The translations under genes and the position numbers were made by a program. 64,000 bases of DNA from Hyphomicrobiales bacterium (lineage in GTDB: Bacteria; Pseudomonadota; Alphaproteobacteria; Rhizobiales; Aestuariivirgaceae): assembly GCA_025363755.1 (NCBI GenBank), contig JANYLQ010000027.1, positions 1 to 64,000 of the forward strand. The letters run 5' to 3'. Below are positions 854-11,054 of the stretch, piece by piece. The notes beneath the pieces were generated by a model. It saw only the letters and a program-made list of their open reading frames with translations. It had not been told where the DNA came from and ran no database searches. Positions within the stretch are counted from its first letter, which is position 1; each line of letters begins with the position of its first letter.

Positions 854-1378
854 ATGACGCCGCGCGATCTCATATCGGTCGGCGTTATTATTGGGGCACA
901 TGGAATTCGCGGTGAGGTGAAGTTGAAAAGCTTCACCGCTGATCCAAGGGCGGTTGCCAGTTATGGCCCGCTGTTATCCGCCACGGGCGAGATGTTCGAA
1001 ATCACCAAACTCAAACCTGCGACGACTGATTTTATTGCGACACTCAAAAACGTGACAGATCGTAATCGCTCTGAAACCTTGAAGGGCACGGAGCTTTTTA
1101 TCTCCCGCGCGCAATTGCCGAAAACATCTGACGATGAAATCTATATACACGATCTCACCGGAACCTCCGTGTACGGAGCAAATAATACGTTGCTGGGTGT
1201 GATTGTGGGGTTTGAAAATTTTGGTGCGGGCGATTTGATGGATGTGAAAGTGGAGGGGCGGGCCGAGACTGTGCTTATTCCTTACACGAAGAAGTTCATC
1301 GTCTCTGCGACCGTCGAAAAAGTGATCGTGGATTTGCCGGAAGATTATTTGGAGGAGGGCAAACGCGATGACATTTGA
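854..1378 (+). CDS. rimM: Ribosome maturation factor RimM
   Basis: RimM assists 30S head maturation, binding S19 and acting late in 16S processing. The 174-residue protein has the N-terminal RimM barrel with the family hallmark [10 protein letters not shown], then a C-terminal PRC-barrel ending in a DYLEEG-type motif. It lies between rpsP and trmD, the conserved rpsP-rimM-trmD-rplS order, and its last 11 nt overlap the start of trmD in another frame, which suggests translational coupling. Confidence 0.97.
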
Positions 1379-2060
1379 CGCGCAAATCCTCACCCTCTTT
1401 CCCGACATGTTTCCGGGCACGCTTGGCCAATCACTGGCGGGCAAAGCTTTAAGTGATGGCAAATGGTCATATGCCGCACATGACATAAGAAGTTTCACCA
1501 CGGATCGTCACCGCACCGTGGATGATCATCCGGCAGGTGGTGGGGCTGGCATGGTGATCAAGCCCGATATTCTGGCGCGCGCCATTGATGCCACGCCGCA
1601 TAAAGGCCCGCGCTTGCTGATGAGCCCGCGTGGCAAGCCGCTTACTCAGACTTTCGTGCGCGAGCTTGCAAGCGGTGAAGGCTGTATGATTATCTGCGGT
1701 CGCTTTGAGGGCATAGATGAGCGCGTCATCGAAAACCGCCAGCTGCAAGAAATCTCGATTGGCGATTATATTCTCTCAGGTGGTGAACCTGCGGCGCTGG
1801 TTCTGCTCGACGCTGTGATCCGCCTGCTGCCGGGGGTGATGGGCCACGACCAGTCACATGCTGAGGAAAGTTTTGAGGACGGGCTGTTGGAGCACCCGCA
1901 TTACACCAAGCCCAGAATCTGGGAGGGGCTGGATACACCCGACATTCTGCAATCGGGCGATCATGCTAAAATTGCCGCCTGGAAACGTGAAAAACGTGAA
2001 GAATTAACGAAAAAACGCCGTCTCGACCTCTGGGACAAATATATCAAGGCCAAAGGTTGA
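1368..2060 (+). CDS. trmD: tRNA (guanine-37-N1)-methyltransferase TrmD
   Basis: TrmD methylates G37 of tRNAs that read CNN/CGG-type codons, using SAM, and so prevents +1 frameshifting. The 230-residue protein shows the SPOUT trefoil-knot region ([15 protein letters not shown] site) and the C-terminal LEHPHYTKP substrate-binding motif. Length is typical (230-255). It overlaps the end of rimM by 11 nt and precedes rplS by about 55 bp. Confidence 0.97.
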
Positions 2061-7714: not shown

Positions 7715-8491
7715 ATGGCGCGCGTGCTGGCGATTTCATCACAAGTGGTCTACGGCCCCGTCGGCCTCAATTGCATTGTGCCTGCCTTGCAAAGCGGAGG
7801 CCACGAAGTTCTGGCCATCCCAACAATCCTGCTCTCAAATCATCCAGGTCACGGCAAGCCAGAAGGTAGAGCACTTGCTCCTTCAGAATTGATCGCAATG
7901 ATTGCTGCGCTCGAAAAGTTAGGTGCTTTCGAAAACCTTGACGCTGTGATTACCGGATATTTTGCCAATGCAGAACAAATTGAAATCGTTGCGGCGCTGA
8001 TAATACGACTCAAGTGCAAAATTATTTTAATTGATCCCGTGTTGGGTGATCATGGCAAACTCTATGTGGGGCAAGCTGTAGCGGAAGCCATTAGTGATCG
8101 ACTGGTGCCACTGGCGACAACTCTAACCCCAAATGCTTTTGAACTCTCATGGCTGACGGGTCTTTCGACACAAAATAGTGAGGAAGCCATTCACGCCGCG
8201 CGGTGTCTTAAGGTCAGGGATGTGATTGCAACATCTGTGGTGAAATCTATTTCTGAACTTTCAACGCTTCGTATTTATGGAGGACATGTTGAAGCAATCA
8301 CATCACCAATCGAGGCCAATGTTCCAAACGGCACAGGGGATTATTTATCGGGGCTTTATCTGTCGGGTCTTTTAAGCGACATACCTCAGTCGGCATTCGC
8401 CGATGCCATGCGCCTTCTGCAAAAGGCAATTGCGCGTAGCAAAGGCACACGGATCTTGGATATCACCTCAGACTTCAGCCAAAAGCCGTAA
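7715..8491 (+). CDS. pdxY: Pyridoxal/pyridoxamine kinase, PdxY-like
   Basis: It should phosphorylate pyridoxal in the B6 salvage pathway, using ATP. The 258-residue ribokinase-fold protein shows the early SSQVVYGPVGLN motif (typical of PdxK/PdxY), DPVLGDHGKLYV in the middle, TPNAFELSWLTG and the catalytic GTGD loop in PNGTGDYLSG. It starts 2 bp after the transporter stop. Its last 17 nt overlap the 3' end of htpG on the other strand. PdxY and PdxK cannot be separated with certainty from sequence inspection. Confidence 0.9.
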   Translation: MARVLAISSQVVYGPVGLNCIVPALQSGGHEVLAIPTILLSNHPGHGKPEGRALAPSELIAMIAALEKLGAFENLDAVITGYFANAEQIEIVAALIIRLKCKIILIDPVLGDHGKLYVGQAVAEAISDRLVPLATTLTPNAFELSWLTGLSTQNSEEAIHAARCLKVRDVIATSVVKSISELSTLRIYGGHVEAITSPIEANVPNGTGDYLSGLYLSGLLSDIPQSAFADAMRLLQKAIARSKGTRILDITSDFSQKP

Positions 8492-10337
8492 TCATTATTT
8501 TGGCAAGACGCTTGGCGAAATCATTTGGTTCTGCCACCACTTCACCTTCGAGCATGAAAGCCTGATCGAGCAACAAATGCGCCGCATCATCAACTGATGA
8601 CGCGCCCTTTTTTTCCGCCAGTTTGGCCAGGGCCTTAATCAAATCATGACCCGCATTAATCTCCAAAACGGGTGCACTCACCGCAACACCTGAGTCTGCT
8701 TGGCGTGAAAGAAGTTTTTCTAAAGTCCGATCCATCTGGCCATCATTGACCAAGCACACAGCACTATCCGTCAAACGCTTCGAAATGCGTACATCAAAAA
8801 CGCGATCACCCAAAACATTCTTGAATGCTGAAACCAAATTCAACGCTGCAGGTTCATCAGCCTTATTTTCTGGTTCATCTTTCGCCTTGATCAAATCAAG
8901 ATCAGCTGTTCCCTGAGCCACTGATTTAAAGGGCTTGCCCTCAAAGCCCAAAGCTGTGCGCACCCAGAAGCTATCGACGGGGTCGGTGAGTAAAAGCACT
9001 TCAACATCACGCGCCTTATAACCTTCAAGCTGAGGGCTAGATTTGGCTTTATTGGCGTCCTCGGCTGTGAGGTAGTAAATCGCGGTTTGATTTTCTTTGA
9101 GACCTGCGATGTAATCTTTTAACGTAATGCTTTCGCGCGTTGTTGTGTTGAGGCGTGCCACTTCAAACAAGAGGTCGCGGCGCTCATAATCCTCATAAAG
9201 CCCTTCCTTGATCACCGGGCCAAATACTGCCCAGATTTTCTTGAAAGTTTCAGGCTCTGTTTCAGCGCATTTTTTTAGTTCGCTTAAAACCCTGTTGGTC
9301 ACAGCCTTGCGGATGACGGCCACATCCGGATTGTTTTGTAACATCTCACGCGAAAGATTAAGCGGCATATCGGCGCTGTCAATCACACCGCGCACAAAGC
9401 GCAGATAGGGCGGCAAGAGGGCTGCATCATCAGCAATAAACACGCGCTTCACATAAAGCTTTTGTTTACCCCTGCGCTCGGGATCGTAAAGATCAAAGGG
9501 CCTTTCGCCCGGCACATAAAGCAACACATTATATTCTTGGCGACCTTCAGCCCTGTAATGGATTGTCAAAGCTGGCGCGTCGGGCGAATGACTGAGAATA
9601 CCAAAGAATTCTTTGTGCTGTTCGGCGGTCACTTCATTTTTAGAGCGCATCCAAATTGCGCTGGCTGAATTGATCTGACGCGGTTCGTCCTCACCTTGTA
9701 ACATAATCGGGTGTGCTATGTGATCGGAATAAGACCGAACAACCTCTTCGAGTTTCCAATCCTCAAGATAGTCACCTGCATCATCACGCAAATGTAAAAC
9801 GATTTTTGTACCCCGTGAAAGATCAGAAGCAGAGGCGACAGTGAATGTTCCCTCGCCATCCGATGTCCAAACATGGCCATCAGCAGAACCCGCTTTCCTT
9901 GAGAACACTTCAACTTTTGAGGCGACCATAAAGGCCGCATAGAAACCAACACCAAACTGCCCAATGAGACTTGGCGCATCCTTGATCTTTTCCACGAAGG
10001 CTTGCGTGCCGGACTTGGCGATGGTGCCAAGATTGTCGCTGAGTTCGTCAGCGGACATGCCGATTCCGCCGTCGCTGATTGTCAGAATCTTTGTCGCCTT
10101 ATCTGGCTTTAATGTGATTTCAAGCTTGGCGTCATTTTCCAAAAGATCAGGATTGGCTATTGCTTCGTAGCGAAGCTTATCCAAAGCATCAGAGGCATTT
10201 GAAATCAACTCGCGTAAAAACACATCCCGGTCAGAATAAACCGAATGCACCATCATGTGCAGCAGCTTGCCCACCTCTGCTTGGAAGGCTTGGGGCTTTC
10301 CTGATTGCTCAGATTTCTTCGTCGCCGATTTTGCCAT
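8475..10337 (-). CDS. htpG: Molecular chaperone HtpG (Hsp90)
   Basis: HtpG is the bacterial Hsp90, an ATP-dependent dimeric chaperone of the cytosol. The GHKL ATPase domain is at the N-terminus (RELISNASDALDKLRY, then ISDGGIGMS and GQFGVGFYAAFMV), followed by the middle domain and a C-terminal dimerisation domain; 620 residues is normal. I prefer the ATG at 10337 because AGGG sits 6 nt upstream; at the ATG at 10343 that motif abuts the codon. A sigma-32-like promoter at 10362-10390 indicates heat-shock control. An ncRNA candidate with its own terminator lies just upstream. Confidence 0.97.
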   Translation of the reverse strand: MAKSATKKSEQSGKPQAFQAEVGKLLHMMVHSVYSDRDVFLRELISNASDALDKLRYEAIANPDLLENDAKLEITLKPDKATKILTISDGGIGMSADELSDNLGTIAKSGTQAFVEKIKDAPSLIGQFGVGFYAAFMVASKVEVFSRKAGSADGHVWTSDGEGTFTVASASDLSRGTKIVLHLRDDAGDYLEDWKLEEVVRSYSDHIAHPIMLQGEDEPRQINSASAIWMRSKNEVTAEQHKEFFGILSHSPDAPALTIHYRAEGRQEYNVLLYVPGERPFDLYDPERRGKQKLYVKRVFIADDAALLPPYLRFVRGVIDSADMPLNLSREMLQNNPDVAVIRKAVTNRVLSELKKCAETEPETFKKIWAVFGPVIKEGLYEDYERRDLLFEVARLNTTTRESITLKDYIAGLKENQTAIYYLTAEDANKAKSSPQLEGYKARDVEVLLLTDPVDSFWVRTALGFEGKPFKSVAQGTADLDLIKAKDEPENKADEPAALNLVSAFKNVLGDRVFDVRISKRLTDSAVCLVNDGQMDRTLEKLLSRQADSGVAVSAPVLEINAGHDLIKALAKLAEKKGASSVDDAAHLLLDQAFMLEGEVVAEPNDFAKRLAKIMITAFG

Positions 10338-10361
10338 GTTCATCCCTAATAATTTGGCGGG

Positions 10362-10402: not shown

Positions 10403-10432
10403 AAAAAAAGGGCGACTGCAACGGCAGCCGCC
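10403..10432 (-). terminator. Strong intrinsic terminator of the ncRNA candidate
   Basis: Read on the minus strand, GGCGGCTGC - CGTT - GCAGTCGCC forms a 9-bp stem with one mismatch and a tetraloop, followed by C and a run of seven T. No protein-coding gene on the minus strand ends here, so the terminator implies a short upstream transcript. Confidence 0.85.
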
Positions 10433-10577
10433 TTAAAACTAAACAAACACACAGACTAACTCTCGTCTAGTAAAAACAGGGGGCCCGGCCGGTTATTAGC
10501 AGCTTCGGGGGCTGGGGGGCTTGAACCAAAGCAAACCAGCCGGGCTGTCGAGGCAACGATTGAACTATCTCCCTGTA
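10403..10577 (-). ncRNA. Candidate structured small RNA upstream of htpG
   Basis: No coding frame explains this block, yet it folds strongly. On the minus strand, CAGGG (10571-10575) can close with CCCTG (10477-10481); inside, GCCCGGCTGGTT pairs with AACCGGCCGGGC with one mismatch (10534-10545 with 10483-10494). Within the loop two small hairpins form: GCTT-..-AAGC and CAGC-..-GCTG. The stem is followed by TTTTT (10472-10476), and a second, very strong terminator follows at 10403-10432. The RNA would be about 100 nt (first stop) or 170 nt (second). It does not fit tRNA, tmRNA, SRP RNA or RNase P motifs. The 5' end is estimated; no convincing -35/-10 pair was found. Confidence 0.6.
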
Positions 10578-10691
10578 TAATGTCGAAGACTTGGTGCAAT
10601 TGCGGCAAAACTGGGGAATTTTGCCCGCTTGCAAAATCAACGCTGCCGCTGCATTGTTACAACGTGATGACAGTCATTCAGATGGTTGCCG

Positions 10692-11054
10692 ATGTCAGGC
10701 ATTAATCAGATTTCAGAAACAGGCGTTTTACTGCGGTTTTCGGGCGTTTTGCCGAGAGAAGTGAGATTTGATCGGTCGGAACTGAGTATGATTCTTGGCC
10801 TTTATGGGCGCAATGTCGCCAACGGCGAATGGCGCGATTATGCAATCGACTTTGGACGCGAAACAGCAAGTTTTAGCGTCTTTAGGCGCAGCAGTGAGCA
10901 GCCCTTATATCGAATCATCAAAAATCCAGTTTTGGCTCGCAAAAACGGTCTGTATTCAGTGGTTGCTCAAGGCGGCTTGATAATGAAACGCGGCAACGAT
11001 TTGGTTCAAGTTTTAAAGGTGCTTGAGAAGCGCCCAAGGCTGGCTGACGCGTAA
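10692..11054 (+). CDS. DUF2794 family protein
   Basis: A 120-residue protein of the alphaproteobacterial DUF2794 family (PF10984), function unknown. Family features seen: an LRFSGV-like start, GLYGRNVANGEWRDYAIDFG in the middle, SVFRRSSEQPLYRI, and the C-terminal GGLIMKRGNDLVQVLKVLEK. It has no signal peptide or membrane segment and is probably cytosolic. I start at the ATG (10692); a TTG lies six bases upstream. It is divergent from the ncRNA candidate and htpG, and 48 bp upstream of dapF. Confidence 0.85.
   Translation: MSGINQISETGVLLRFSGVLPREVRFDRSELSMILGLYGRNVANGEWRDYAIDFGRETASFSVFRRSSEQPLYRIIKNPVLARKNGLYSVVAQGGLIMKRGNDLVQVLKVLEKRPRLADA

Follow-up and report, generated by a model that had tools for sequence, protein, structure and literature searches.

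We find that the minus strand of a 64,000-nucleotide stretch of DNA from a Hyphomicrobiales bacterium (contig JANYLQ010000027.1; hereafter, the window) carries a structured, terminator-bearing RNA gene at about 10558-10403, which, judged by its sequence, very probably specifies a genuine small regulatory RNA. The RNA is conserved at the sequence level: two covarying stems carry a C-rich loop, a 5′ element, GUUGCCUC, precedes them and a terminator follows in most relatives. It also usually keeps one place, divergent from a gene for a DUF2794 protein. Nor is the RNA wholly new. Its sequence relatives tie it, as a diverged member, to BjrC174, PmaR and GspR, and suggest that all four are one old RNA of the order. 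We consider it likely that the gene specifies a trans-acting sRNA of an ancient Hyphomicrobiales family that includes BjrC174 and PmaR, with GspR placed there by locus, strand and core.

The RNA block lies in the gap between htpG (8475-10343, minus strand) and DUF2794 (10686-11054, plus strand). The original prediction had set it opposite DUF2794, but it is intergenic and divergent from that gene. Of the extent first proposed, 10403-10577, the block itself is real, but comparison of relatives puts the start nearer 10558 than 10577, because 10569-10564 resembles a -10 element. This element lies 6-11 nt upstream of a conserved (C/T)GTTGCC start, on which the inferred 5′ end is based. The core comprises stems P1 and P2 and the loop AGCCCCCCAGCCCCC, preceded by the unpaired GUUGCCUC. 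The features are:

10403-10558, minus strand: predicted sRNA of about 156 nt, 5′ end from the -10-like element and 3′ end from the terminator
10550-10557, minus strand: GUUGCCUC, conserved unpaired 5′ element, from alignment columns
10534-10545, minus strand: 5′ arm of stem P1, pairing with 10494-10483, from covariation
10483-10494, minus strand: 3′ arm of stem P1, pairing with 10545-10534, from covariation
10526-10532, minus strand: 5′ arm of stem P2, pairing with 10508-10502, from covariation
10502-10508, minus strand: 3′ arm of stem P2, pairing with 10532-10526, from covariation
10507-10521, minus strand: AGCCCCCCAGCCCCC, C-rich apical loop and presumed seed, its last bases entering P2, from conservation
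10438-10471, minus strand: A/U-rich, less conserved middle hairpin, from the predicted fold; variable in the alignment
10403-10432, minus strand: intrinsic terminator (stem 10432-10411) and U-tract (10409-10403)
10564-10569, minus strand: -10-like element GATAGT, with conserved A at -10 and T at -6
10582-10606, minus strand: putative promoter box GCC-N8-ACC-N8-GAC, a degenerate GCC-N8-GCC-N8-GCC found by the relaxed pattern only
10686-11054, plus strand: DUF2794 gene with a TTG start (PF10984, E 9.5e-37), the usual divergent neighbor
8475-10343, minus strand: htpG (HSP90, PF00183), the downstream neighbor in this lineage

P1 is a 12-bp stem with one G-U pair, and both it and an inner stem are present on the minus strand, as first described. 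Seven of the eight columns of GUUGCCUC are invariant in alignment A1, and in 78 loci each base of GUUG is kept in 77-78 and each base of CCUC in 66-75. The loop AGCCCCCCAGCCCCC is invariant or almost so in A1 and resembles the loop in BjrC174 and in the Atu_C10/PmaR consensus.

The minus strand of 10403-10577 folds at -64.6 kcal/mol, compared with -49.6 ± 3.7 kcal/mol for 200 dinucleotide shuffles (z -4.0), none of which (0/200) folded as well; z is -2.4 for the opposite strand and -3.4 for the trimmed RNA (10558-10404, minus strand). Although terminator-like sites between 9000 and 12000 are about as frequent as expected (5 found versus 4.1), the distal terminator tops those five in both pairs and G-C pairs. 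Of 78 relatives, 53 have a terminator in the 150 nt that follow the core, compared with 2 of 76 control stretches. Two terminators had been proposed. The distal one (10403-10432) is present, but the T-run at 10472-10476 is, by eye, lost in most alignment rows, and the distal terminator is therefore likelier to be the real one. Two other pairings were set aside. For a closing stem, ACAGGG/CCCUGU, clear support beyond relatedness was absent: across 26 loci the cognate score was reached by 31 of 1000 re-pairings, with 498, 47 and 26 of 1000 in three control stretches. An alternative inner hairpin, TGAG/CTCA, covaried no more than shuffles did.

A blastn search matched the block in 28 of 61 genomes, its own included. 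The 28 core loci (L002-L029) were aligned, and two further hits in one genome (G056; L030 and L031), which lack htpG and DUF2794, were dropped. In this structure-free alignment (27 distinct sequences), 8 of 18 pairs have changed on both sides, with 35 both-sided cells compared with 8.4 after shuffling. Model R1 was built from these cores and a wider model, R2, from 79 sequences. The 79 distinct sequences show both-sided changes at 16 of 18 pairs and 243 both-sided cells (53.8 ± 7.6 in shuffles) in an alignment fitted to the R1 structure, which favors covariation and against which slid controls and the structure-free alignment guard only partly. None of 500 shuffles matched any of five measures of this covariation, and the slid controls were far lower. 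In P1, 9 of 11 modeled pairs changed on both sides and 95.8% of cells are paired; in P2, the values are 7 of 7 and 91.5%. Compensatory change in the stem, whose absence had been named beforehand as refuting, was found in both the 28- and the 79-sequence alignments. As far as fold, terminator and covariation test it, the description of a structured noncoding RNA with its own terminator was right.

Could the hairpin be conserved for a protein rather than for base pairing? The RNA is a long imperfect hairpin and 5 of 11 P1 pairs are invariant in A1, which could reflect protein contacts of a protein- or polymerase-binding RNA like 6S or CsrB. However, 6S RNA itself (RF00013) lies elsewhere in this genome (G000:C16:24298-24457, 57.3 bits), with no 6S match in the window, and both PmaR and GspR are reported to bind mRNAs (PMC6234868; PMC5928217). 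We regard a protein-binding role in place of base pairing as very unlikely.

With which gene does the RNA travel? Attention had been drawn to htpG, but among the matches listed only 35 of 120 loci have a same-strand htpG downstream, and 101 have DUF2794 upstream in divergent orientation; the usual partner is therefore DUF2794, not htpG. Among these same listed matches, DUF2794 is downstream on the same strand in 1 of 120 loci and was not found in 18, six of which have fewer than 500 bases there. A search for htpG was negative in 85 of them; 77 of these extend 500 bases or more downstream and 8 fall short of that. The 80 of these 120 loci that are listed singly have DUF2794 divergent in 70, on the same strand in one and not found in 9, with htpG downstream in 21. 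The window copy lies divergently upstream of DUF2794, as in the wider family.

Among the close loci L002-L029, htpG is present in 28 of 28 and DUF2794 in 27 of 28. Since the RNA is co-directionally upstream of htpG in all 28, it could be a cis-acting leader or attenuator, with read-through from the RNA promoter into htpG or with heat sensing. Yet a strong terminator ends the RNA, an RpoH-like promoter (assigned by eye) then follows, htpG was not found at those 85 listed loci, 77 of which extend 500 bases or more on that side, and Rhizobiaceae have a convergent thioredoxin-fold gene in that position. We consider a leader function highly improbable. The sequence CTTGAC..CCAATAT at 10390-10362 (minus strand), which we take to be the RpoH-like promoter of htpG, is visible by eye in most rows of the 28-locus alignment.

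DUF2794 occurs in 54 of 60 order genomes outside the matches of R1. In 30 such DUF2794 loci, R2 gave a match at E up to 5 in 18 and none in 12; the best match is divergent from DUF2794 in 18 of 18 (17 at 232-514 bases from the domain and one at 1134), the weakest of these matches being individually not significant. One possibility is that the DUF2794 protein binds the RNA or that the RNA controls DUF2794, as the gene is the divergent neighbor in 101 of 120 loci among the matches listed, 27 of 28 close loci and 23 of 26 Atu_C10 matches. We think this unlikely. A shared promoter region can keep divergent neighbors together; extra copies in family f91 (L081, L082, L087 and L092) have no DUF2794 in view; and in 30 DUF2794 loci of the class, R2 matched at E <0.001 in only 4, with one more at 0.019. 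Nor does the AlphaFold model of DUF2794 (helix, five strands, helix; pLDDT 84.6) have a PDB match with E <0.3; as modeled, the fold is possibly undescribed.

Within the order, R1 matches 126 of 249 genomes and 65 of 111 genera, this genome included; at E 0.01 with strict filters, a match was absent in 123 of 249. A pattern scan of named genomes gave at least 120 loci, and Microvirga, Bosea, Rhodoplanes, Parvibaculum, Methyloligella, Methyloceanibacter and Rhodopseudomonas are among the matches listed. In a sample of the class, R1 matches 11 of 385 genomes, its own included, and R2 matches 15 of 385, which include its own and one other of the order. Relatives occur in other alphaproteobacterial families (f61, f91, f94 and f142; f56 more weakly; f109 in a DUF2794 locus).

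Some genomes carry several copies. Three f91 genomes (G317, G444 and G540) have 5, 4 and 4, and a fourth (G616) has 1; some of these sibling sRNAs (L081-L083, L087-L093 and L248-L250) form close pairs beside DUF2794, with further copies elsewhere. One of the latter, L081, with no DUF2794 in view, retains by eye a GCC-N8-GCC-N8-GCC box. In L101, a second, weaker copy (1051-1127, minus strand; 30.3 bits) adjoins the main one.

How does the RNA relate to described families? A covariance search with Rfam found no family at its cut-off across the whole window, which agrees, as far as tested, with the view that the RNA is unlike tRNA, tmRNA, SRP RNA or RNase P. Relaxing the threshold brought up six matches to the RNA stretch, all at chance level (best E 0.2). 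The suhB/mmgR family (RF00519) was rejected, as its 17.8 bits (cut-off 41) cover 10478-10396 only and not the core. BjrC174 (RF02355, cut-off 45 bits) gave no match to the window copy at E 10. Atu_C10 (RF02497, cut-off 60 bits), which is PmaR, formerly C10 (PMC6234868), has a consensus that aligns with the core from end to end and shares its stems, with ACCCCCAGCCCCC as the loop, but weakly and at chance level (14.3 bits, E 3.5). Family membership therefore rests on intermediates. We define the wider family here as the P1/P2 hairpin with an AGCCCCC(C)AGCCCC loop, matched by R2. R2 scores the window copy, one of its 79 training rows, at 65.5 bits; outside the training set it reaches 42.4 bits in BjrC174, 39.6 in Shinella, 34.0 in S. 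meliloti and 21.4-23.7 in PmaR.

For BjrC174, 7 of 13 relatives scanned match RF02355 at 44.2 to 22.9 bits, under the cut-off of 45, and 7 of 18 named loci from the family pattern are at or over it. Among 20 of 30 loci scanned with Rfam, strong BjrC174 matches (175.5 and 170.3 bits) occupy two DUF2794 divergent slots, and R2 finds both at 42.4 bits. At another locus, L259, a BASRCI27 match (1336-1461, minus strand) adjoins DUF2794 at 42.7 bits, under its cut-off of 59.8.

A simple Rfam search with Atu_C10 was not informative: at E 1 it picked out 7 of 121 order genomes, all below the cut-off, and also a cyanobacterial control genome. In one of the seven (G058), the match is in the DUF2794 slot. 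In Shinella, matches to BjrC174 (35.5 bits, E 0.0032) and to Atu_C10 (28.0 bits, E 0.09) coincide in that slot, both below cut-off, and R2 scores 39.6 bits there. The family to which G058 belongs has an Atu_C10 match at E 0.05 in 26 of 247 genomes. Three are over the cut-off (118.6, 116.4 and 105.9 bits), all in one genus, which from these sequence matches we infer to be Agrobacterium, and lie between a divergent DUF2794 and a convergent thioredoxin-fold gene; family f45, tried as a route to Agrobacterium, gave no match in 3 genomes. On the three loci over the cut-off R2 scores 21.4-23.7 bits (E 0.027-0.069), and other members of the family reach 48.8. Divergent DUF2794 adjoins 23 of the 26 Atu_C10 places; L293 adjoins only the thioredoxin-fold gene, and L301 and L311, with neither neighbor, look like chance.

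R2 matches both Sinorhizobium records at 34.0 bits, in S. meliloti (E 1.6e-4) in the gap between SMc03844 and SMc03845; its match in Rhizobium NLR16a is weak (17.6 bits, E 0.13), and the records of Methylobacterium and Ruegeria yielded no significant match at the slot. GspR maps to that same gap (PMC5928217), a place divergently upstream of DUF2794 like those of the BjrC174 and PmaR matches over cut-off, and SMc03845 is described as srlA, with a predicted thioredoxin fold. Since an antisense RNA of GspR is ascribed to the 3′ end of SMc03845, GspR should lie on the strand of the R2 match. Folding energy fits two frames for the ends of GspR about equally well. Two plasmid-labeled records, L282 (CP090106.1) and L286 (NZ_CP072868.1), carry acnA, an srlA-like gene and DUF2794; presumably the SMc gene names of S. 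meliloti Rm1021 point to a chromosomal location.

These sequence comparisons leave the homology of the window RNA to BjrC174, PmaR and GspR well supported. Three separately described sRNAs thus appear to be one conserved RNA, although two were published as nearly genus-restricted: PmaR is reported as confined to Agrobacterium species and one Rhizobium strain (PMC6234868) and GspR to Sinorhizobium, with A. tumefaciens stated to have no homolog (PMC5928217). In the open-access literature, which leaves most subscription journals outside, we found no paper joining the three; only GspR and SmelC775 are co-named. As one family, their targets and regulation become comparable across the order, RF02355 and RF02497 could share an Rfam clan, and the BjrC174 and GspR promoters gain a common element open to test.

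What might that element be? When 78 loci are lined up by their RNA start, the C's at -57, -46, -35 and -24 carry 1.46, 1.80, 1.76 and 1.51 bits, and A at -10 and T at -6 occur in 60 and 52 of 78. Omitting one locus without flank, GCC-N8-GCC occurs in 45 of 77 loci versus 4.3 in shuffles, GCC-N19-GCC in 53 of 77 versus 3.6 and the triple GCC-N8-GCC-N8-GCC in 34 of 77 versus 0.10. Other GCC spacings from 3 to 18 occur in 0-11 loci, with maxima at 15 and 16 (11 each; 3.0 and 3.9 when shuffled). Among 21 hand-listed loci of Rhizobiaceae and Bradyrhizobium type, a G(C/T)C triple is found in 12, a pair only in 3 and no box in 6. The triples include L260 and L261 (BjrC174), L287-L289 (PmaR) and L282 (S. 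meliloti); those of L281 and L299 are oddly placed and could have arisen by chance.

We hypothesize from the sequence that the ChvG-ChvI envelope-stress system, by way of its response regulator ChvI, would drive transcription through the phased GCC-N8-GCC repeats, so that the RNA would perhaps be made under cell envelope stress. The S. meliloti ChvI consensus is N-GCC-N8-GCC as quoted in PMC9731502, which proposes a different motif for Caulobacter, TTGC-N3-GCAA. In this genome, genes for an OmpR-type response regulator, a ChvG-like histidine kinase and an HPr kinase follow one another (L313, 3214-6178), as is reported for chvIG-hprK. The histidine kinase scores 463.9 bits (E 7.5e-139; next best 171.4) against the NCBIfam ChvG model, a Caulobacter model whose cut-off, 740, is above that score; ChvI was not among the 25 families shown for the regulator. 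CenR was rejected as regulator, since its box is reported as TGA-N8-TGA, not GCC. The phased element could also explain the promoters of BjrC174, reported in B. japonicum as the strongest tested without a mapped consensus, and of GspR, whose 5′ end is reported to have no known promoter signature (PMC5928217). In the same study GspR did not increase when cells met acid, salt, heat, cold, oxidative or microoxic stress, a point against straightforward control by ChvI.

Homology to PmaR and GspR predicts that the C-rich loop lets the window RNA act in trans. From the work on both, this single-stranded loop would be expected to pair with mRNAs and affect how stable they are or how they are translated; its targets would belong to cell-wall synthesis and the cell cycle. 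The C-rich loop of PmaR is reported to be accessible and the RNA to bind murB and ampC mRNAs (PMC6234868), and GspR represses cspA5 and ctrA via two stem-loops, of which SL1 binds ctrA (PMC5928217); SL1 may lie outside the shared core. Since GspR is described there as Hfq-independent, we claim no role for Hfq. We tentatively propose, at somewhat short of an even chance, that BjrC174, PmaR, GspR and the window RNA represent a single sRNA, vertically inherited since early Hyphomicrobiales and with relatives in other alphaproteobacterial families, and that its ChvI-type box of three 11-bp-phased GCC repeats would make it the core base-pairing arm of the order's ChvG-ChvI cell-envelope stress response.

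Finally, we compare the window RNA with known systems. BjrC174 of Bradyrhizobium and Rhodopseudomonas shares the P1/P2 hairpin, the CAGCCCCC-AGCCCCCC loop, the terminator and the slot divergent from DUF2794; L260 and L261 have an exact GCC-N8-GCC-N8-GCC box, whereas that of the window is degenerate, and of GUUGCCUC they keep only GUU. PmaR likewise has a spoon-shaped hairpin with the loop ACCCCCAGCCCCC in the same slot and, at L287-L289, a GCC-N8-GTC-N8-GCC box, but it lacks GUUGCCUC and has a different downstream gene. GspR/SmelC775 occupies the same gap, on the same strand as judged from its antisense RNA, and has the core hairpin with the loop CAGCCCCAGCCCC and a GCC-N8-GTC-N8-GCC box; it differs in an extra 5′ hairpin, the shared core being its SL2 or SL3. 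Two other sRNAs would resemble the window RNA in working. Caulobacter ChvR would be alike in being under ChvI-ChvG control, a likeness in working only, but it is set apart by being reported as C. crescentus-specific and beside recF. EcpR1 of Sinorhizobium is reported as a Rhizobiales-wide trans-acting sRNA that pairs via a conserved loop, but its locus is divK-pleD and its loop is UCCGCCGCAUCU.
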